Shown piece after piece: positions 32,687-42,778 of a stretch of DNA of 42,907 nt. The first letter of the stretch is position 1. Each line of letters begins with the position of its first letter. A model generated the notes under the pieces. The model did not search any database, was not told the DNA's origin, and saw nothing but the letters and a program-made list of their open reading frames with translations. Location: NCBI GenBank assembly GCA_021159015.1, contig JAGGSQ010000059.1:1-42907 (forward strand), read 5' to 3'. Position numbers and translations under genes: made by a program. Source of the DNA: Candidatus Omnitrophota bacterium (lineage in GTDB: Bacteria > Omnitrophota > Gorgyraeia > Duberdicusellales > Duberdicusellaceae).

Positions 32687-33646
32687 CTAAAAAGGAGGAT
32701 AATCGGCCCGCTCTAGACTCAATTGCCGCCCTGCTCTGTTGATAATATCTTTTGCCGCGGCAAAAGTCAAGAAATGTTTCTGGTTATAAAGAGCGTATAG
32801 CTTTGCTTGCGAGAAAGGCGTAAAATTAGACATAAGTACATTACATCCTTCTGCCAGAGCCCTTTCATAACCGCAAGGAGCTAAAGAATTAAGAGCTGTG
32901 GTAGCGGGAAGATAAGAATAAGGCAGGATGCGCCGGACAAGAGAAATTATTTTCAATACTTTTTTCAGAGAAGGAGGTGGCTGGGCCGCGAGAGGTGTAT
33001 TTTTTGCCGGCACAAAAGGACCTATAGCCGCCATAGCCGGCTTAAATTCCTGCATAAACTTAAGATTATTCTCTATATCTTTCTCAGACTGCTGTGGTAG
33101 GCCAATAATAAATCCGCAGCCTACCTGATAAGACAGTTTTTTTAAGAACGCTAAAATTTTAAGGCGGTGGGAAAGGCTTTGACCAGGATGAAGCTTTGCA
33201 TACAGACGCCTATCCATAACCTCTTGTTTAAGCAGATACCGCTCTGCTCCCGCCTCATAAAAGGCGCGGTAATCGTCAAAATCTCTCTCGCCCAAAGAAA
33301 GAGTTATAGCCAGGGAGGCATCAAGTTTTTTTATCTTTTTAATAATAGCCACTAAGAACTTACGGGAGTAAATATTACTATCGCCGCTTTGCAAGACAAC
33401 TGTTTTTATCCCCAGAGAAACAATACGACGCACCATACGCATTATCTCTTCCTCCCTTAAGGCATACCTTCTTAACTTCCTATTGCTACGCCGCAAGCCG
33501 CAATAAAAGCAGTCCCAATGACAATAGTTACAAAACTCAATTACACCACGCATAAACACTTTGCGCCCAAAAGTAGCTTTATTCTCATCTACCCCGGGCA
33601 AAGATTCCTTTTGTTTTGGCTTTCTTAGACAAACTTCTAAAACCAT
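32687..33646 (-). CDS. hydE: [FeFe] hydrogenase maturase HydE (radical SAM)
   Basis: HydE acts with HydG and HydF to build the dithiomethylamine-bridged 2Fe part of the H-cluster; current work has it acting on the HydG-made Fe(CO)2CN-cysteine complex. The 319-residue protein has CX3CX2C at CHWDCFYCGLRRSN, preceded by the HydE-specific GVIEFCNY, then TVVLQSGDS, GAERYLLKQEV, LYAKLHPGQS, QVGCGFIIGLPQQ, IGPFVPAKNTPLA and PATTALNSLAP. It resembles biotin synthase family enzymes but the neighbours hydF and hydG settle the call. It is about 20 residues short at the N terminus compared with the T. maritima enzyme as I remember it, and it has no further C-terminal cysteine cluster. Confidence 0.94.
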   Translation of the reverse strand: MVLEVCLRKPKQKESLPGVDENKATFGRKVFMRGVIEFCNYCHWDCFYCGLRRSNRKLRRYALREEEIMRMVRRIVSLGIKTVVLQSGDSNIYSRKFLVAIIKKIKKLDASLAITLSLGERDFDDYRAFYEAGAERYLLKQEVMDRRLYAKLHPGQSLSHRLKILAFLKKLSYQVGCGFIIGLPQQSEKDIENNLKFMQEFKPAMAAIGPFVPAKNTPLAAQPPPSLKKVLKIISLVRRILPYSYLPATTALNSLAPCGYERALAEGCNVLMSNFTPFSQAKLYALYNQKHFLTFAAAKDIINRAGRQLSLERADYPPF

Positions 33647-33668: not shown

Positions 33669-35165
33669 TCAGAAGAATAAATCTCTTTCTCCTCTGCTAA
33701 TGCGGCGGTAGTACTCTTCTAAAAGAGGAAGATACTGCCCATACCTACATCTAACTTCTTCTCTTTCTTTCTCCAGCAGTAATAAAGCCTTTTGATAAGT
33801 GGAACTAGAGGCAAAATCATCTATCCACTCGCGGAAAGTAAGAATAGCATTAAGTTTGCAAAATATGCCTTCCTGGCCGCTGCGCAGAAGTTCCATAATA
33901 CGTTTCCCTGTACGCCCGCAACGATAGCCGGCTGTGCAAAAAGAAGTAATAATTCCTTTATCCGCTAAATCACCCACTAATTCATCTAAACTTCTCTCAT
34001 CTCCTAAAATAAACTGCTGCTTTTTCTCCTCCTGCCTCATAACCCCCTGTTTATAAGAACCAATTCCTATACGGCTGGAAGCATCGGTCTGGGTTATACC
34101 CCATTTTAAAGATTCCTCCCTTATTCTTTTTGGCTCGCGGGCCGTAATAATCATACCGGTATAAGGTATACTGAGGCGAATCAAAATTACAACTTTTCTA
34201 AAATCTTCATCACTCAGCTGCCAGGAAGAACCAGAGGCAAAAGGAGTATTAAGCGCTGGCTCCAAGCGGGGAAAAGAAACGGTGTGAGGACCAATGCCAA
34301 ACTCTTTCTCTAATTCCCGGGCATGCAGGAGCAGGGCCATCACTTCAAAACGCCAGTCATAAAGGCCAAACAATACTCCTATTCCTACATCATCAATGCC
34401 CGCCTTAAAGGCCCGGTGCATAGTATAGAGACGCCAGAGATAATTGTGTTTTATTGTGCCGGTAGGGTGAACTCTTTTGTAAGTAGCATGGTGGTAAGTC
34501 TCCTGAAACACTTGATATGTTCCCAAACCCACCTTCTTCAACTCTCTCAGCTCCTCGAGGTTCAGGGGCGGGGCATTAACGTTTACCCTTCTTACCTGAC
34601 CCCAGCCATTCTTCGTCTTTACTTTTACTTTATAAATTGTCTCGATACTTTCTTTTATGTAAGATAAATCTGTCTGAGGATGTTCGCCATAAACAACAAT
34701 CAAGCGTTTATGACCAATTTCGCCCGCCAGAACTTCTGACTCCTGCTTAATTTCGGCCCGAGAAAGTATCTTTCGCTCTATTTGGGAATTTTCCTTGCGA
34801 AAACCGCAGTAAAGGCAGGAATTAACACAAAAGTTGCCCAGATACAAAGGGGCAAAAGTAACAATGCGGTTATTGTAAACTCTCCTTTTTATTGCTAAGG
34901 CTGCCTCTTCCATACGAGCCCAGCTTTGGGGATCTTTCAGAGACATAAGATAGCTCAATTCTTCCAAAGAAAGCGTCTCTATGGCCAAAGCTTTTGCTAA
35001 TATCTCCTCAAGCCTTTTCTTATCTGGCTTGTAGTCTTTATTTACAGCTTTTCGGATTAAGTCTTCTTTGATAAAATCTCCTCCCTCTTTGAGAAAAGGC
35101 ATAATTTCTTCTTCCTTAATCCGTTCTTTCTGCCACTCTTCAATACTTAATGGCACAGTCTTCAT
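33669..35165 (-). CDS. hydG: [FeFe] hydrogenase maturase HydG with an altered auxiliary-cluster motif
   Basis: HydG cleaves tyrosine to make CO and cyanide and delivers an Fe(CO)2CN-cysteine synthon. The 498 residues contain the radical SAM motif at CVNSCLYCGFRKEN and the GPHTVSFPRLEPA histidine that binds the dangler iron in known enzymes. The C-terminal auxiliary [Fe-S] motif, normally CX2CX22C (CTAC...), reads C410-TAG-YR-C416-GRTG with C436 in place. So the second cysteine of the motif is glycine and a new cysteine stands three residues later. The bases are clear (GGC and TGC). The start overlaps hydF by 26 bases. Function probably kept if C416 takes over the ligand role. Confidence 0.94.
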   Translation of the reverse strand: MKTVPLSIEEWQKERIKEEEIMPFLKEGGDFIKEDLIRKAVNKDYKPDKKRLEEILAKALAIETLSLEELSYLMSLKDPQSWARMEEAALAIKRRVYNNRIVTFAPLYLGNFCVNSCLYCGFRKENSQIERKILSRAEIKQESEVLAGEIGHKRLIVVYGEHPQTDLSYIKESIETIYKVKVKTKNGWGQVRRVNVNAPPLNLEELRELKKVGLGTYQVFQETYHHATYKRVHPTGTIKHNYLWRLYTMHRAFKAGIDDVGIGVLFGLYDWRFEVMALLLHARELEKEFGIGPHTVSFPRLEPALNTPFASGSSWQLSDEDFRKVVILIRLSIPYTGMIITAREPKRIREESLKWGITQTDASSRIGIGSYKQGVMRQEEKKQQFILGDERSLDELVGDLADKGIITSFCTAGYRCGRTGKRIMELLRSGQEGIFCKLNAILTFREWIDDFASSSTYQKALLLLEKEREEVRCRYGQYLPLLEEYYRRISRGERDLFF

Positions 35166-36432
35166 CTTCTCTCCTCTTTTCTTTATTTCTTTTTAACGCC
35201 TCCTTTAAAGCCCAGAAAGAGGCAGGAAACGGCTCAAGCACTCTCTCCCACACTCCTTGCAGAAAAGAGATTACTACGCCGTAATTAGTCATAGCTACTC
35301 CCGCGGCTTTGGCTTTATTGAGCCTTGTTAACATCTGGCGACGGCGCAGCATACACCCTCCACAGTGAATAATCAATTTGTAAGAAGACAAATCAGACGG
35401 AAAGTCCCAGCCGCTGTAAGTATCAAAATTCACCTTAAACCCCTTATACATACTAAGCCAACGAGGAATTTTTACTCTGCCAATATCATCCTCTATAGGA
35501 TGATGACTGCAGGCTTCCAGAATCAGCACTTTATCTTCGGGCGCGAGACAATCTACAGCCGCAGCAGCGCGGCATGCTTCCGTAAGGTCTCCTTTATAGC
35601 GGCTAAAGAGAATGGAGAAAGTCGTACATTTAATCCCCGGCGGCGTATCGGCAACCATTTGCCGAACCACCTGAGAATCACAAACTACTAGAGCCGGACT
35701 CTGCGGCAGGCGCTTAATAAAATAGGGATATTCCCTCTCTTTCACCACTAGGCACGCGGCATTAGAATCTAAAACTTCCCGTATCATCTTCACCTGCGGC
35801 AAGATAAGCCTTCCCCGGGGGGCCTGTAAATCAATAGGAACCACCAAGGCTACAAGGCTTGCAGCCGGAATTAGGTCGGCAGCCAGAGGAGGTTCATAAA
35901 GAAAATCCGCCGGCAATACACAGCGCAGTCTTTCCTTAAAAGCTTTAATATATTCGTCCCGGCGCGCCGTATCCAAAGCACAAAGCTCCAGATAAGCCAA
36001 GCCGTTTCCATCAAGCCTGCGTTTTACTTCCAGACTCAGCCGCCCTTTATCTATCTTATTAACCACCGCCAGCAAAGGAATTTTTCTTTCCTCCGCCTCT
36101 CGAACTACAAAGTCCTCGTACTCTGACCAGATATGCGGCTCCACAATCAGTACACACACTTCTGCATTATCCAGGGCCCGCAAGGTTTTGTTAAAACGCT
36201 TCTCTTGCAGCAGACTTGTATCGTCTAATCCGGCTGTATCAAGAAAGACTACCGGCCCCAGCGGCAGAAGCTCCATAGTCTTTACCACTACATCTGTGGT
36301 AGTGCCTTTCTGCGGCGAGGTTATAGATACATCCTGCTGGCTGATAAAATTCAGCAGGGTTGATTTTCCTACATTAGCACGTCCGAATATGCCGATATGA
36401 AGCCTGTGTGTTTTAGGTGCCTTATCCTTCAT
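35140..36432 (-). CDS. hydF: [FeFe] hydrogenase maturation GTPase HydF
   Basis: HydF is the scaffold and carrier that receives the 2Fe subcluster from HydE/HydG and delivers it to HydA. The 430-residue protein begins with a GTPase domain: P-loop GRANVGKSTLLN, switch residues KGTTTDVV, DTAGLDD, and NKID. The C-terminal part has the Fe-S cluster motif of HydF: CSHHP, then IHCGGCMLRRRQM, matching C-x-H ... H-C-x2-C. The length is normal. It overlaps aspA upstream by 11 bases and hydG downstream by 26, so all maturases are translated from one message. Confidence 0.96.
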   Translation of the reverse strand: MKDKAPKTHRLHIGIFGRANVGKSTLLNFISQQDVSITSPQKGTTTDVVVKTMELLPLGPVVFLDTAGLDDTSLLQEKRFNKTLRALDNAEVCVLIVEPHIWSEYEDFVVREAEERKIPLLAVVNKIDKGRLSLEVKRRLDGNGLAYLELCALDTARRDEYIKAFKERLRCVLPADFLYEPPLAADLIPAASLVALVVPIDLQAPRGRLILPQVKMIREVLDSNAACLVVKEREYPYFIKRLPQSPALVVCDSQVVRQMVADTPPGIKCTTFSILFSRYKGDLTEACRAAAAVDCLAPEDKVLILEACSHHPIEDDIGRVKIPRWLSMYKGFKVNFDTYSGWDFPSDLSSYKLIIHCGGCMLRRRQMLTRLNKAKAAGVAMTNYGVVISFLQGVWERVLEPFPASFWALKEALKRNKEKRREDEDCAIKY

Positions 36433-37630
36433 AGCCTAAAGACATAACAGAATAAAGATCAAGCCTTTTTACTACCCTTGCCTTGTCCAGCTTTCCCTTT
36501 AAGAAATTAAGAAAATTTTTCCTTTTTCCCTGGGTGAGACTCTCTAAAATTCTCTCCTGCTTCTGACAGCCAGATTCGGGCAAGAAAGCTGCCACCAGAC
36601 GCAAAGTAGCATAAAGATAGCGAGAGCAGTTTTCTGCATTAGCTTCTATTTTTTCAATATACTCAGCTAAAGCTCTGTTGAGGCCAGTTAAGATATCCGC
36701 TGACTCCAGAAAAGCAAAACCTAAAAGCGGCAGAAACTCGTTGATCTGGAAAGTTCCCAAAGCCGCACATTCAAAAAATAATAAAATATCAGCCCGCACC
36801 TTTATCCCAATTTGTACCGCTGCCTCCAGAATTACCGGATTGACTTTACCGGGCATAAGAGAAGAGCCGGCCTGATAAAGGGAGAGTTTTATCTCTTTTA
36901 AGAGGCTGAGGCGGCGCAGGTCGTTAGCTATTTTTACCAGATTAACCGCATGTGTCTTCAATATGCCGCTTGCCTCAGTGAAACTGTCCGCATTGGCTGT
37001 AGCATCGATTAAGTTTTCACTACGACAGAGATTAACACCGCTCATAGTATGTATCTTTTCCCATACCAGAAATATATAACGGCGCGGCGCACCTATGCCT
37101 GTGCCAATAGCTGTGCCACCCAAGTTTGCCTGGCGCAATCTCTCACGAGCTTTAAAGACTCTCCAGCGGTCTCTGGCTACCGCTTGAGAAAAAGCTGAAA
37201 ACTCTGCCCCCAGTGAAAAAGGTACTGCTTCCTGGAGCTGAGTGCGGCCGATTTTTAGCAAGGGGAAAAACTCTTTCTCTTTTTTTTGAAAGGCTCCCTG
37301 CAATTTCTCAATTTCTTCCTCAAGCTCTCCCAAACTCCTAATAAGAGCCAGGCGCAAAGCTGTAGGGTAAGTATCATTAGTAGACTGATGCATATTAACA
37401 TCGTCCAAAGGATTAAGATATTCATACTGACCTTTAGCATAGCCTAACTTCTCCAGGGCAATATTAGCAATTACTTCGTTAAGATTCATATTAGTAGAAG
37501 TCCCTGCTCCGCCCTGCAAAGCATCAAGCTGAAATTGATCGTCGTATTTGCCGTTTTCTATTTCCATACAAGCGTCAATTATAGCACGGGCTTTCTTCTC
37601 TTCCAGAAAGCCTAATTCCCAATTAGCCAA
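36422..37630 (-). CDS. aspA: Aspartate ammonia-lyase (fumarase/aspartase family), open part of a frameshifted gene
   Basis: Aspartase splits aspartate to fumarate and ammonia. The open frame (402 residues, TTG start) contains the family motifs QGGAGTSTNMNLNEVIA, MHQSTNDTYPTALRL, GRTQLQEAVPFSLG and the signature SSLMPGKVNP. The start is not real: the first ~50 codons, from an ATG that forms an ATGA junction with hydA, are present but in two other frames (see 37631-37788). Aspartase genes occur in other [FeFe]-hydrogenase maturation operons, where ammonia release may feed the amine of the bridging dithiomethylamine. That biochemical link is my inference from genomic context and from knowledge that ammonium is needed for the bridge nitrogen. 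Confidence 0.9.
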   Translation of the reverse strand: MANWELGFLEEKKARAIIDACMEIENGKYDDQFQLDALQGGAGTSTNMNLNEVIANIALEKLGYAKGQYEYLNPLDDVNMHQSTNDTYPTALRLALIRSLGELEEEIEKLQGAFQKKEKEFFPLLKIGRTQLQEAVPFSLGAEFSAFSQAVARDRWRVFKARERLRQANLGGTAIGTGIGAPRRYIFLVWEKIHTMSGVNLCRSENLIDATANADSFTEASGILKTHAVNLVKIANDLRRLSLLKEIKLSLYQAGSSLMPGKVNPVILEAAVQIGIKVRADILLFFECAALGTFQINEFLPLLGFAFLESADILTGLNRALAEYIEKIEANAENCSRYLYATLRLVAAFLPESGCQKQERILESLTQGKRKNFLNFLKGKLDKARVVKRLDLYSVMSLGYEG

Positions 37631-37788
37631 AGCTGCCGCCCTTTTTACCAGTGCATAAGCGGCAACAAGACGACGGTTTACCTTAATAACCGGAGAAACA
37701 AAAGTTCTCTCGCGCCCTCTGTGTATAAATACCCCAGTAAACCTCAGAAGGAAGTTTTTTCTCCTAATAAATCCCTTTCTTTTCTCAT
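37631..37788 (-). pseudogene. aspA: N-terminal aspA segment disrupted by two single-base frameshifts
   Basis: Starting at ATG 37788 (ATGA overlap with the hydA stop), the frame reads MRKERDLLGEKTSF and stops. The next frame then reads EVYWGIYTQRARENF, and the third frame reads SPVIKVNRRLVAAYALVKRA into the open aspA ORF. These three pieces together match an aspartase N terminus in order. Removing one A from the A6 run (37755-37760) and one T from the T4 run (37700-37703, minus-strand sense) restores one continuous frame: ...LLGEKLPSEVYWGIYTQRARENFVSPVIK.... Both sites are homopolymers, so sequencing or assembly error is a strong alternative to true gene decay. Confidence 0.85.
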
Positions 37789-39536
37789 CTTACATACAAA
37801 GGCCTTTCTTTATACCGGGCATGAAGCAAAGATATGCTTTTATTACTCAATGGTTTCCCGAGAAAATCCGTGTAAAGTTTCTTAACAAATACATTATGAT
37901 GGGAAAAACGCGTTTGCGCCTGGCGGTCGTCTTCATACAAGCCTTCCATACGTTTCCGTCTTAATGCATCAGTGGCTCCATAAGGCTGCCCACCTCCGCC
38001 TACACACCCACCCCGGCAGGCCATTACTTCTATAAAATGATACAATGGCACATTTTCTCCCTGCTTGTGTTCTCTCAACCTGTTAAGAAGATTCTCCACA
38101 TTGCCTAGACCGTGTGCTACTGCCACCTTAACTTCTCTGCCCTTAATCGTAACACAGGCGCTTTTGATTCCTTCTAAACCTCTCACTTCATTAAGTTCAA
38201 CCTCAGGCATATCCCTGCCTTCAATAAGAAAATACGCTGTGCGCAACGCCGCCTCCATAACTCCGCCGCTAGCTCCAAAGATTACTCCTGCCCCGGAATA
38301 CTCTCCTAAAATATTATCTGCTTCTTCTTCGGGAAGATTAAGAAAATCAACCCCCGCCTGTTTAATCATTCTGATTAATTCTCTGGTAGTGAGCACTGCG
38401 TCTATATCCTGATAGCCGGAAGCAAACATTTCGTCGCTTCTGGTTATCTCATACTTCTTAGAAGTACAGGGCATAATAGAAACCATAAATATTTTCTGGG
38501 GTGCTATATTGTATTTCTGCGCATAGTATGTTTTTGCTAAGACCCCCAGTATTTCGTGAGGAGACTTGCAGGAAGAAAAGTGCCCAATCATATCCGGCCG
38601 GAATTTCTCCATATAATCAACCCAGGAAGGGCAGCAAGTAGTAATTAAAGGCAAAGGCCCTTTATTATGCATAAAACGCTCTACAAATTCCGCAGCTTCC
38701 TCCATCACTGTAACATCCGCCCCAAAATTAGTGTCAAATACTGCCTTAAATCCCAGGCGGCGCAGGAGAGCATAAAGCTTCCTGGTAAGATTAGTCCCGG
38801 CCTCAAGCCCAAATCCCTCTCCCACGGCCACTCTTACAGCCGGAGCAATCTGTACTACACAATACTTGTCCTCATCCCGAAGAGCCTCCCATATACGAGC
38901 AACCTCGTCTTTCTCAAGAATCGCTCCCGTAGGGCAGTATCCTGCACATTGGCCGCACTTAACACAAGGAGATTCTGATAATTTTATATCTCCTGCCGGG
39001 GCAAAACGGGTATTAAAGCCACGCCCCAGAAAAGAAAGAGCCCAAACGCCCTGAACCTCCTGGCACACCTCCAGACAGCGCCCGCATTTTATACATTTAG
39101 CCGGATCAAGAACAATAGAACAGGTAGAATTGTCCTGTGGCAGGTCTAGAATATATTTGTCAAAAGTTTCTTCTCTAATACCAAAATCGGACACCAGCGT
39201 CTGCAGTTCGCAGTTATTATTACGGCCGCACTTGAGGCAATCGTTAGGATGGGCTGAAAGAATAAGTTCTAAAACCGTACGCCTCACGCTGACAATATCA
39301 GAATCGTGAGTAATAATCTTCATACCCTCTTCCACCGGCATACAGCAGGATCGGACCATTTTTCCTGAAGGAAGCAGTTTAACTATGCACAAGCCGCAAG
39401 CAGCCGAAGGAGGCAAATCAGGATGTTTGCATAAAGTAGGAATATTAATATGTGCCATTTTCGCCGCTTCCAGTATACTTATACCTTGAGGGACAAAAAT
39501 ATCGCTGGAATTAATAGTGATTTTTACCTTATTCAT
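37785..39536 (-). CDS. hydA: [FeFe] hydrogenase catalytic subunit HydA
   Basis: HydA reduces protons or oxidises hydrogen at the H-cluster. The 583 residues carry an N-terminal plant-type [2Fe-2S] domain (1-80: CKHPDLPPSAACGLCIV), a His/Cys [4Fe-4S] motif (HPNDCLKCGRNNNC), two ferredoxin clusters (CIKCGRCLEVC, CVKCGQCAGYCP) and the H-cluster domain: L1 TTCCPSWVDY, L2 MPCTSKKYE, L3 MACRGGCVGGGGQP. The proton-relay cysteine of L1 is present. The order hydC-hydB-hydA matches trimeric NAD(H)- and ferredoxin-linked hydrogenases, but a C-terminal [2Fe-2S] domain found in the Thermotoga enzyme is absent. The start lies 2 bases after hydB. Confidence 0.97.
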   Translation of the reverse strand: MNKVKITINSSDIFVPQGISILEAAKMAHINIPTLCKHPDLPPSAACGLCIVKLLPSGKMVRSCCMPVEEGMKIITHDSDIVSVRRTVLELILSAHPNDCLKCGRNNNCELQTLVSDFGIREETFDKYILDLPQDNSTCSIVLDPAKCIKCGRCLEVCQEVQGVWALSFLGRGFNTRFAPAGDIKLSESPCVKCGQCAGYCPTGAILEKDEVARIWEALRDEDKYCVVQIAPAVRVAVGEGFGLEAGTNLTRKLYALLRRLGFKAVFDTNFGADVTVMEEAAEFVERFMHNKGPLPLITTCCPSWVDYMEKFRPDMIGHFSSCKSPHEILGVLAKTYYAQKYNIAPQKIFMVSIMPCTSKKYEITRSDEMFASGYQDIDAVLTTRELIRMIKQAGVDFLNLPEEEADNILGEYSGAGVIFGASGGVMEAALRTAYFLIEGRDMPEVELNEVRGLEGIKSACVTIKGREVKVAVAHGLGNVENLLNRLREHKQGENVPLYHFIEVMACRGGCVGGGGQPYGATDALRRKRMEGLYEDDRQAQTRFSHHNVFVKKLYTDFLGKPLSNKSISLLHARYKERPLYVR

Positions 39537-39538
39537 AG

Positions 39539-41572
39539 TTACCGCCTCTCTATTGCTTTAAATTTGCATACTTCTATACACCTACCGCACTTTACACATT
39601 TATCCGCTTCAATATAAAAGCCTCTTTCCTTATCTCCGGCAATTGCCTCAGCGGGGCAGGTTTTCTGACACACGCCGCAGCGGCGGCATTTTTCTTCCTT
39701 AATAACATAAGTAACCAGATCATTACAGCGCAAAGAAGGACACCTCTTGTTTAAGATATGCTCCTGATATTCCTCACGGAAGTATTTAAGCGTAGATATA
39801 ACCGGATTAGGCGCTGTCTGTCCTAGCCCGCACAAAGAAGCTTTCTGCATTGCATAAGCAATACGAATCATCTTATCTATGTCTTCTTCTCGGCCCCGGC
39901 CCTGAGTTATCTTTTCTAAAATGTGATACAGCTGCCACCCCCCAATACGGCAAGGCGCACATTTTCCGCAGCTCTCGTCTATACAAAACCCCAGGTAAAA
40001 TTTAGCTATGTCAACCATACAATCATCCTCGTCCATAACAATCATACCGCCGGATCCGATTATGGAACCGAAATCCTTCAGAGACTGATAATCAACTTTT
40101 ATCTTCAATTTTTCTGCCGGAATCACCCCTCCCGAAGGGCCACCCGTCTGCACAGCTTTAACCCTGCGGCCAGACAACGTTCCCCCGCCGATATCAAAAA
40201 TAATCTCCTCCAAACTTATGCCCATTTCTACTTCAATCAAGCCGGAATTTCTCACTTTGCCGGTTAAAGCAAAAACCTTGGTTCCTCTGGAATCAGAAGT
40301 GCCAAAAGAAGCAAACCACCTCCCTCCTCTATCAATAATTGCCGCAACATTAGCTAAAGTTTCTACATTATTAATTACGGTAGGCTTCCCCCACAAACCT
40401 TTAATCGAAGGATAAGGAGGACGCGGACGAGGCAAACCTCTGCCTCCCTCTAAAGAAGCGATTAAGGCAGTTTCTTCCCCGCACACAAAAGCCCCCGCCC
40501 CCAGGCGCACCTCTATGTCAAAAGAGAAACCCGACCCTCTTATATTCTTTCCCAAATAGCCACAGCGATAAGCTTCTTCTATGGCTTTTCTCACCCGCTC
40601 AATAGCCAAAGGGTATTCTGCCCTTATATAAAAAAACCCTTTGTCCGCCCCTACTGCCAGACCGGCCACCAGCATACCTTCAATAACACTATGCGGATCT
40701 CCTTCTAAAATACTTCTGTCCATATAGGCTCCCGGATCCCCCTCGTCGGCATTACAAACAATATAACGCTGGTTTGCTTCTGTCTGAGAAGCAATCTCCC
40801 ATTTCCTGGCGGTAATAAACCCTCCGCCCCCTCTGCCCCTCAATCCAGCCTCAGCCAGCTCTTTAATAATATCTTCCCTATTCATGGATAAAGCTTTTTC
40901 TAATGCTTTATAACCGCCGGCATTCAGATAATCATCTATCGACTCAGGGTTAATCACGCCACAGTGGCGCAGGACAATTCTTTTCTGGTGCGGAGAAAAA
41001 ACAGGAAACCTCCTTTCTGGCGACGGAGAAACGAGCAAAGAGGGAATTTCTTCTAAATCGTTATCGTCCAGACAAACATAGACAATATCTTTTTGAGGGA
41101 TATCTACTACAATCCCTTTATCATATATGCCCATATCAGCCGGCTCTATCACCTGCCAATCGTCATAACCAGACTCTTTTAGAATTCCCGCCAGCTTTTC
41201 CTTTGCTTTGATTGACCCGCTGGTATCCTTAACAAAAATCACCTTATCCAGCCATACTTCGTCGTTATGAAAAAGGTTATCAAAACGCAGGCGGTACAAA
41301 AGCCTTTCTACAATCTCTCCTTTCAGAAGATGCCGCCCCACTATTTCTTCTACATCTTGCGGCATTACTTTTCCGTAAAAAACAGGTCCCAGACCTTTTC
41401 CTTTAACCTCTATCAGCGGCTCGGCATAGCAGAATCCCAGACAGCCGGTTTTTTTAAGCTCCACCTTCAGAGAATAACGCCGCAGCATATCCTCCCAGCA
41501 CGCATATACTTTATCGGCCCCGGCAGCAATGCCGCAACTGGAAAGACTAACTTTTACATAGTCAATATTCAT
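39539..41572 (-). CDS. hydB: Hydrogenase subunit HydB (NuoF-like flavoprotein with ferredoxin tail)
   Basis: This subunit carries FMN and the NAD(H) site and is the probable bifurcation site in trimeric hydrogenases. The 677 residues comprise a thioredoxin-like [2Fe-2S] domain (1-110, with GCLGFCYAEPLIEV), the NuoF core with NAD/FMN glycine-rich RGRGGGGFITARKWE, CNADEGDPGAYMDRS and GAGAFVCGEETALI, the N3-type [4Fe-4S] motif ESCGKCAPCRIGG, and two C-terminal ferredoxin clusters (CRRCGVCQKTCP, CVKCGRCIEVC). The length and order match HydB of electron-bifurcating enzymes. It shares an ATGA junction with hydC. Bifurcation versus simple NADH linkage cannot be proven from sequence. Confidence 0.96.
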   Translation of the reverse strand: MNIDYVKVSLSSCGIAAGADKVYACWEDMLRRYSLKVELKKTGCLGFCYAEPLIEVKGKGLGPVFYGKVMPQDVEEIVGRHLLKGEIVERLLYRLRFDNLFHNDEVWLDKVIFVKDTSGSIKAKEKLAGILKESGYDDWQVIEPADMGIYDKGIVVDIPQKDIVYVCLDDNDLEEIPSLLVSPSPERRFPVFSPHQKRIVLRHCGVINPESIDDYLNAGGYKALEKALSMNREDIIKELAEAGLRGRGGGGFITARKWEIASQTEANQRYIVCNADEGDPGAYMDRSILEGDPHSVIEGMLVAGLAVGADKGFFYIRAEYPLAIERVRKAIEEAYRCGYLGKNIRGSGFSFDIEVRLGAGAFVCGEETALIASLEGGRGLPRPRPPYPSIKGLWGKPTVINNVETLANVAAIIDRGGRWFASFGTSDSRGTKVFALTGKVRNSGLIEVEMGISLEEIIFDIGGGTLSGRRVKAVQTGGPSGGVIPAEKLKIKVDYQSLKDFGSIIGSGGMIVMDEDDCMVDIAKFYLGFCIDESCGKCAPCRIGGWQLYHILEKITQGRGREEDIDKMIRIAYAMQKASLCGLGQTAPNPVISTLKYFREEYQEHILNKRCPSLRCNDLVTYVIKEEKCRRCGVCQKTCPAEAIAGDKERGFYIEADKCVKCGRCIEVCKFKAIERR

Positions 41573-42092: not shown

Positions 42093-42746
42093 TTAATGCC
42101 GGCGGTTAAGAAAGTAAACCAGAGTCTGCAATTCACACGCCATATCGACATTGGCAATATAAATGCCTTCCGCCGGCAATTTAATACTTACAGGGGCAAA
42201 ATTCAAGATAGATTTAATACCTGCTCCCACCATTCTCTCCGCTATGCTTTGGGCAAATTGAGGCGGCACGCAAATCATGCCTATTTCAATCCCACCCTTC
42301 TTAATAACCGCTGGCATCTCTTCCAGCGATTTAACCTCTACGCCCGAAATGGCCTTCCCGATTTTCTTGCGGTCGTTGTCAAAAGCCGCAGTTATTCTTA
42401 GCTTAAACTGAGGGAAGCCGGAAAAACCCAGAAGTGCACTACCCAAACGCCCCACTCCCACTAGAGCTATATCCCACCAGCGGTAAATACCCAGGATTTT
42501 CTCCAGTTCCCTAATCAAGAAACTCACTTCGTACCCCACTCCTCTTTTGCCAAATTCGCCGAAATAAGAGAGGTCTTTCCTGAATTGGGCCGAAGATATA
42601 TCCAGCATCTTTGTTATTTCATCGGAAGAAATTACCTCTACCTCCTGCTCCTGAAGATTCTTCAGGTCTCTTAAGTAAAGGCTTAGCCTTTTTATGACTT
42701 CCGGGGAGAAACATTTTTTCTTGGAACAAACTTTCTCTTTCTGCAT
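42093..42746 (-). CDS. rex: Redox-sensing transcriptional repressor Rex
   Basis: Rex binds DNA when NADH is low and releases it when NADH/NAD+ is high. The protein has an N-terminal winged helix (about residues 10-75: VIKRLSLYLRDLKNL, SSDEITKMLDISSAQFRKDLSYFGEFGKRGVGY in part) and a Rossmann domain with GVGRLGSALLGFSGF. The 217-residue form from ATG 42746 matches the usual length. The track uses GTG 42776, which overlaps a Rex-like operator and lacks a ribosome-binding site, so I prefer the shorter form. It stands just upstream of its likely target, the hydrogenase operon, in the same direction. Confidence 0.95.
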   Translation of the reverse strand: MQKEKVCSKKKCFSPEVIKRLSLYLRDLKNLQEQEVEVISSDEITKMLDISSAQFRKDLSYFGEFGKRGVGYEVSFLIRELEKILGIYRWWDIALVGVGRLGSALLGFSGFPQFKLRITAAFDNDRKKIGKAISGVEVKSLEEMPAVIKKGGIEIGMICVPPQFAQSIAERMVGAGIKSILNFAPVSIKLPAEGIYIANVDMACELQTLVYFLNRRH

Positions 42747-42760
42747 ACCGCTTTGTTTAA

Positions 42761-42778
42761 TTGTTACATTATTCACAA
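42761..42778. promoter_or_regulatory. Degenerate Rex-like site at the rex leader
   Basis: On the minus strand TTGTGAATAATGTAACAA has a perfect left half-site and five of seven bases of the right half. It lies 15 bases before the preferred rex ATG and downstream of the candidate promoter, a suitable place for autoregulation. Confidence 0.5.

Follow-up and report, generated by a model that had tools for sequence, protein, structure and literature searches.

The maturation systems of [FeFe]- and [NiFe]-hydrogenases have long been treated as unrelated. In the former, HydG cleaves tyrosine to CO and CN- and assembles an Fe(CO)2CN synthon, bound to cysteine, which HydE receives directly, as described in the part of the literature cited by PMC11736057 and PMC6212873. 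For the latter, a 2025 review of cofactor assembly names the anaerobic source of CO as the most pressing question and mentions neither HydG nor radical SAM enzymes (PMC12134894). Departures from the standard spacing of the HydG cluster motif have been described in acetogenic clostridia, whose HydG-like proteins with C-x4-C-x23-25-C are proposed to hold a cluster (PMC9431212). In the literature that we searched, which took in few subscription journals, we found neither HydG nor HydE described as part of [NiFe] maturation, and no earlier report of the C-x5-C-x19-C form of HydG that is described here. Variability of the HydG motif was reportedly discussed by Duffus et al. in 2012.

Results

The window analysed here is a 42,907-nucleotide stretch of a Candidatus Omnitrophota genome (GCA_021159015.1, contig JAGGSQ010000059.1), and all features given below lie on its minus strand. 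Its hydG gene (33669-35165) encodes an intact protein of 498 aa that scores 436.9 bits against TIGR03955, above the curated equivalog cut-off of 312.15 bits. ThiH or another tyrosine lyase was rejected as its identity, since the ThiH score (254 bits) falls below the cut-off of 380 and the HydG score lies above its own. The radical SAM motif C113-x3-C117-x2-C120 (34806-34829) is present, as is H294 of GPHTVS (34284-34286, CAC), which, from the HydG literature, we take to be the dangler-iron histidine. The auxiliary-cluster motif reads C410-T-A-G413-Y-R-C416-G-R-T-G and continues to C436, so that the spacing is C-x5-C-x19-C in place of C-x2-C-x22-C and the protein counts as a variant rather than a canonical HydG. 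On the DNA, the shifted segment C410 to C416 occupies 33918-33938, with codons TGC for C410 (33936-33938), GGC for G413 (33927-33929) and TGC for C416 (33918-33920), and the third cysteine, C436, which is conserved in both HydG types, is encoded by TGC at 33858-33860. In an alignment to PDB entries 4WCX and 4RTB, G413 falls on the second ligand cysteine, and the counterpart of C416 is Met or Lys. A sequence-only reading of this locus had described the altered spacing, a Gly413 (GGC) in the place of the second cysteine with a new Cys416, and the retention of Cys410, Cys436 and GPHTVS; translation and alignment bore out all of this, down to the codons and with exact coordinates, and C410, C436 and H294 proved invariant across the variant HydGs.

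The adjacent hydE (32687-33646; 319 aa; TIGR03956, 317 bits, over the cut-off) is not fused to HypC and carries CxxxCxxC in the form CHWDCFYC, while hydF (35140-36432), encoding a GTPase/scaffold of 430 aa (TIGR03918, 490.8 bits), retains C-x-H...HCGGC and the P-loop. The hydA gene (37785-39536) encodes a group A6 NADH-dependent [FeFe]-hydrogenase of 583 aa (NF040763, 772.8 bits, over the cut-off) with the H-cluster motifs TTCCPSW, MPCTSK and EVMACRGGC. The earlier claim of intact active-site motifs in these three neighbours thus agrees with their translations. Profile searches identified hydB (39539-41572) as encoding a NuoF-like diaphorase subunit of 677 aa, and a rex-like redox-sensing repressor gene (42093-42776; Pfam CoA_binding and Put_DNA-bind_N) belongs to a family that is also found near HydG or the HypC-HydE fusion in [NiFe] clusters of relatives (see below). 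Between hydF and hydA, a profile match and translation identified an aspA-like gene for aspartate ammonia-lyase (36422-37630), whose N-terminus is missing or frameshifted; immediately upstream (37600-37790), pieces of the N-terminus occur in two other frames, which suggests frameshifts through assembly error or decay. AspA is known within hyd operons (PMC11736057).

HydE, HydF and HydA accompany HydG in the window's genome, and a search of this genome returned a single HydG, the variant one. Neither a [NiFe] large subunit nor HypD was found there, and given the presence of HydA and HydF this indicates that HydG does the ordinary [FeFe] job in this organism. It would thus act as a tyrosine lyase that provides the adjacent group A6 enzyme with CO, CN- and, judging from its homologues, the Fe(CO)2CN synthon.

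The shifted-cysteine pattern is real, ancient and common to about 19 phyla, and the variant is a large HydG subfamily rather than a peculiarity of the window's genome. Among 30 HydGs from relatives, fetched by family score alone, 26 have the CTAGYRC form and 4 the canonical motif. A motif scan with one genome per species returned the CTAGYRC form on at least 118 contigs from at least 19 named phyla plus unassigned ones, and cultured carriers include Sphaerochaeta halotolerans, Desulfosarcina widdelii and Peptoclostridium litorale, the last of which holds one HydG of each type. Across 166 unique HydGs, positions 410/413/416/436 read C/G/C/C in 137 and C/C/x/C in 28, the remaining sequence being a misaligned fragment; since most of the 137 were picked by the motif itself, the independent points are the score-fetched relatives and C436, which was not selected for. 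No intermediate with both or neither of Cys413 and Cys416 occurs among the 166. Positions 358, 361, 423 and 432 co-vary with the motif, the variant residues being T358, D361, I423 and E432, and H294, the radical SAM cysteines and almost every other invariant residue are common to both types. A phylogeny in which motif positions 413 and 416 were masked groups the variant HydGs in one clade (support 100/99) against ThiH and canonical HydG. Two further carriers may be mentioned: in Peptoclostridium acidaminophilum the variant gene (L032:7947-9440) stands alone on an 808-kb replicon, far from other hyd genes, and in an Archaeoglobaceae archaeon MAG (L037 / G061) it adjoins HydA, with HydF elsewhere, in a genome that also encodes HypDEF and several [NiFe] subunits.

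An AlphaFold2 model of the window HydG (pLDDT 92.7) superposes on 4wcx_A with an rmsd of 1.9 Å over the whole chain; in it, C410 follows a short strand, residues 412-415 form a short helix followed by C416, and C436 lies within a later helix, so that a ligand move from 413 to 416 corresponds to about one helical turn. The variant is also the sole HydG beside HydA, HydE and HydF in S. halotolerans, an isolate, and in D. widdelii. Taken together, the invariant active-site residues, the matching fold and these sole HydGs beside HydA, HydE and HydF are good circumstantial evidence that the cluster site works with C416 as a new ligand. The auxiliary [5Fe-4S] cluster of the window HydG would then be held by C410, C416 and C436, with C416 standing in for the lost second ligand, and the best reading of the variant motif in these sequences appears to be a one-time ligand shift that kept the cluster, arose once and then spread across phyla. 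We infer both ligation by C416 and unchanged chemistry of the variant enzyme.

Two other readings of the motif were weighed. An error of sequencing, or an oddity of one strain, might be suspected from the frameshifted look of the nearby aspA start, and the sequence-only reading had itself allowed for relatives that all keep canonical CTAC. The same form in 26 of 30 relatives found without the motif is, however, due neither to chance nor to base error, and at least 118 further contigs share it; relatives are not all canonical, the single-strain objection fails against so large a subfamily, and the probability of an error is negligible. The other possibility is that the shifted motif imposes a different cluster geometry or has cost the enzyme its dangler iron, so that free CO and CN- would be released and no Fe synthon made. 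More columns than those of the motif change along with it, including S358T and S361D, and release of free CO and CN- from HydG has been described in part of the literature cited by PMC9431212. We nevertheless think this unlikely, as H294, like the rest of the active-site columns, does not vary in either HydG type, and variant and canonical HydGs occur in the same [FeFe] and [NiFe] contexts. The sequence-only reading had left a ligand swap and a changed CO/CN output side by side; a moved ligand in a functional HydG is favoured by the invariant cysteines, the single clade and the sole HydGs beside [FeFe] genes, whereas nothing shows a changed output.

A connection with [NiFe]-hydrogenases, which was out of reach of the sequence-only reading, emerged from relatives. 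Genome searches revealed that several relatives with the variant HydG have no HydA, and many Omnitrophota lack both HydA and HydF, yet encode [NiFe]-hydrogenases whose metal-binding motifs are intact. The HydG neighbourhoods of HydA-less relatives contain genes for Mbh-type and group-3b-like [NiFe]-hydrogenases, HycI protease, HypA and Rex, together with a protein of 430-470 aa that joins HypC (PF01455) to a radical SAM domain resembling HydE. The HypC part begins MC in 56 of the 56 copies that reach back to the initial Met, and this Cys2 is presumably the residue known as essential from the HypC literature. By comparison of predicted structure, the HydE part lies within 1.5 Å rmsd of Thermotoga maritima HydE, and it scores 240.7 against the HydE equivalog cut-off of 254.6, that is, below it. 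Several separate inventions of the fused HydE were considered and rejected, since the only two rows within it that lack the fusion are copies truncated where a contig or locus ends. Nearly all full-length [NiFe] large subunits fetched from fusion-bearing relatives have both RxCGxC and DPCxxC, and at 40 further loci the fusion adjoins [NiFe] genes, protease or HydG in nearly all cases; a HydG near the fusion was not seen in several of the fusion genomes.

HydGs beside the fusion carry CTAC, CAAC or CTAGYRC, so motif and [NiFe] role are separate matters. The motif was therefore rejected as a marker of that role: canonical CTAC/CAAC HydGs also accompany the fusion, some variant HydGs work for [FeFe] enzymes, and among the labelled rows of the variant clade the role switches at least 6 times. 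In G137, one 915-aa frame (L274:6645-9395, plus strand) comprises HypC, HydE and HydG, the last with the variant motif; the gene lies directly downstream of those for HycI protease and HypA. G010 (L183, L310) has HydA, HydF and unfused HydE on one contig and [NiFe] genes with the fusion on another, and its single HydG suggests that one ligand source may serve both hydrogenase sets.

The HydG-associated and standard [NiFe] systems exclude each other. A set of 57 genomes included 16 Omnitrophota with [NiFe]-hydrogenase and HydG and without HypD. HypE and HypF over cut-offs are absent in all 16, HydF is absent in 15 (G010 has both systems), and HydA was not found in the 4 searched among these 15. 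HypD, HypE and HypF are all present in the 8 [NiFe] genomes without HydG, HypF lying below the cut-off in G001 and G004 because only its C-terminal part was found. Of 384 Omnitrophota genomes, almost all of them incomplete metagenome assemblies, 59 in 19 family groups carry the fusion and 137 carry HypD; every fusion genome has a [NiFe] large subunit (59/59) and none has HypD (0/59). The 204 [NiFe] genomes thus divide into 59 with the fusion, 128 with HypD, none with both and 17 with neither (Fisher p = 3e-36, only a guide because genomes are not independent). The 17, in which a [NiFe] large subunit was detected without HypD or the fusion, are G088, which is 99% complete, G133, G196, G220, G289 and 12 others, and could reflect assembly gaps or a third route. 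Group-4 large subunits of the HypD-bearing G030 and the fusion-bearing G041 are 82% identical.

Discussion

The fusions, the gene neighbourhoods and the mutual exclusion with HypDEF are direct observations. The best joint explanation of the data, which we consider likely, is that the window HydG is a working Cys-shifted [FeFe] maturase and that HydG and HypC-HydE of its relatives make Fe(CN)2CO, replacing HypDEF. For the [NiFe] route taken by itself we think it quite probable that many Omnitrophota derive Fe(CN)2CO from tyrosine by means of HydG and HypC-HydE, as a complete replacement of HypDEF and carbamoyl phosphate, and that a single HydG can supply hydrogenases of both classes.

We infer every chemical step of such a route from what is known of the component proteins. 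HydG of either motif would supply CO, CN- and an Fe-carbonyl synthon from tyrosine; the HydE domain would strip the cysteine and hand the iron to the attached HypC, and a second CN- would displace one CO to give Fe(CN)2CO. The HypC domain, through Cys2, would deliver this unit to the apo-large subunit, a task that HypC also has in the standard route, and HypA and the protease would then finish the large subunit.

HydG yields CO and CN- in about equal amounts, and Fe(CN)2CO requires two CN- per CO. This mismatch, and the unexplained part of HydE in a [NiFe] route, would be accommodated if HydG and HypC-HydE gave only CO, or one ligand, and cyanide came from a non-homologous enzyme. Such a division of labour seems improbable: with HypD, HypE and HypF all gone, cyanide synthesis must be replaced as well, HydG makes cyanide, and no recurrent extra enzyme of a cyanide-making kind was recognised in the clusters. 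It is less probable still that the fusion and HydG have another purpose, the [NiFe] enzymes being unmatured or the Hyp genes lost from the assemblies. Incomplete metagenome assemblies and the 17 [NiFe] genomes with neither system would fit such a loss, but not one of the 59 fusion genomes has the HypD that is found in 137 others, HypE and HypF are absent in parallel, and the fusion adjoins [NiFe] genes, protease and HypA with Cys2 of its HypC domain intact. Tyrosine-derived Fe(CN)2CO remains our preferred account of the [NiFe] genomes.

The HydG variant is a natural experiment on the way in which the auxiliary cluster has to be bound if CO and CN- are to be made. If the [NiFe] route is confirmed, it would be categorically new. 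It would answer the CO-source question for one phylum, show that nearly the same enzyme can be matured by either of the two pathways, and provide a tyrosine-labelled system for a direct test of the source of CO.

Compared with canonical HydG (TIGR03955; 4WCX, 4RTB), the window protein has the same length, fold, radical SAM motif, dangler histidine, C410, C436 and operon partners, and is 39-44% identical to the canonical HydGs in the alignment, but its second cluster cysteine lies three residues on and is linked to T358, D361, I423 and E432. The clostridial proteins with C-x4-C-x23-25-C likewise depart from the standard spacing; theirs differs from that of the window HydG in both spacing and position, and they were reported as putative HydGs from Clostridium only, with no clade or [NiFe] link. 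The fused HydE domain shares with T. maritima HydE (3IIZ; complex-B bound, 8QMK) its fold, at the rmsd given above, 37% identity and CxxxCxxC, whereas the fusion adds an N-terminal HypC and sits with [NiFe] genes, mostly in HydF-less genomes. With the HypCDEF pathway (PMC12134894), the fusion-bearing relatives have in common the Fe(CN)2CO target in the large subunit, a HypC domain, HypA and a C-terminal protease; they differ in having HydG and a HydE domain in place of HypD, HypE and HypF, and in a proposed ligand source that is tyrosine, not carbamoyl phosphate.
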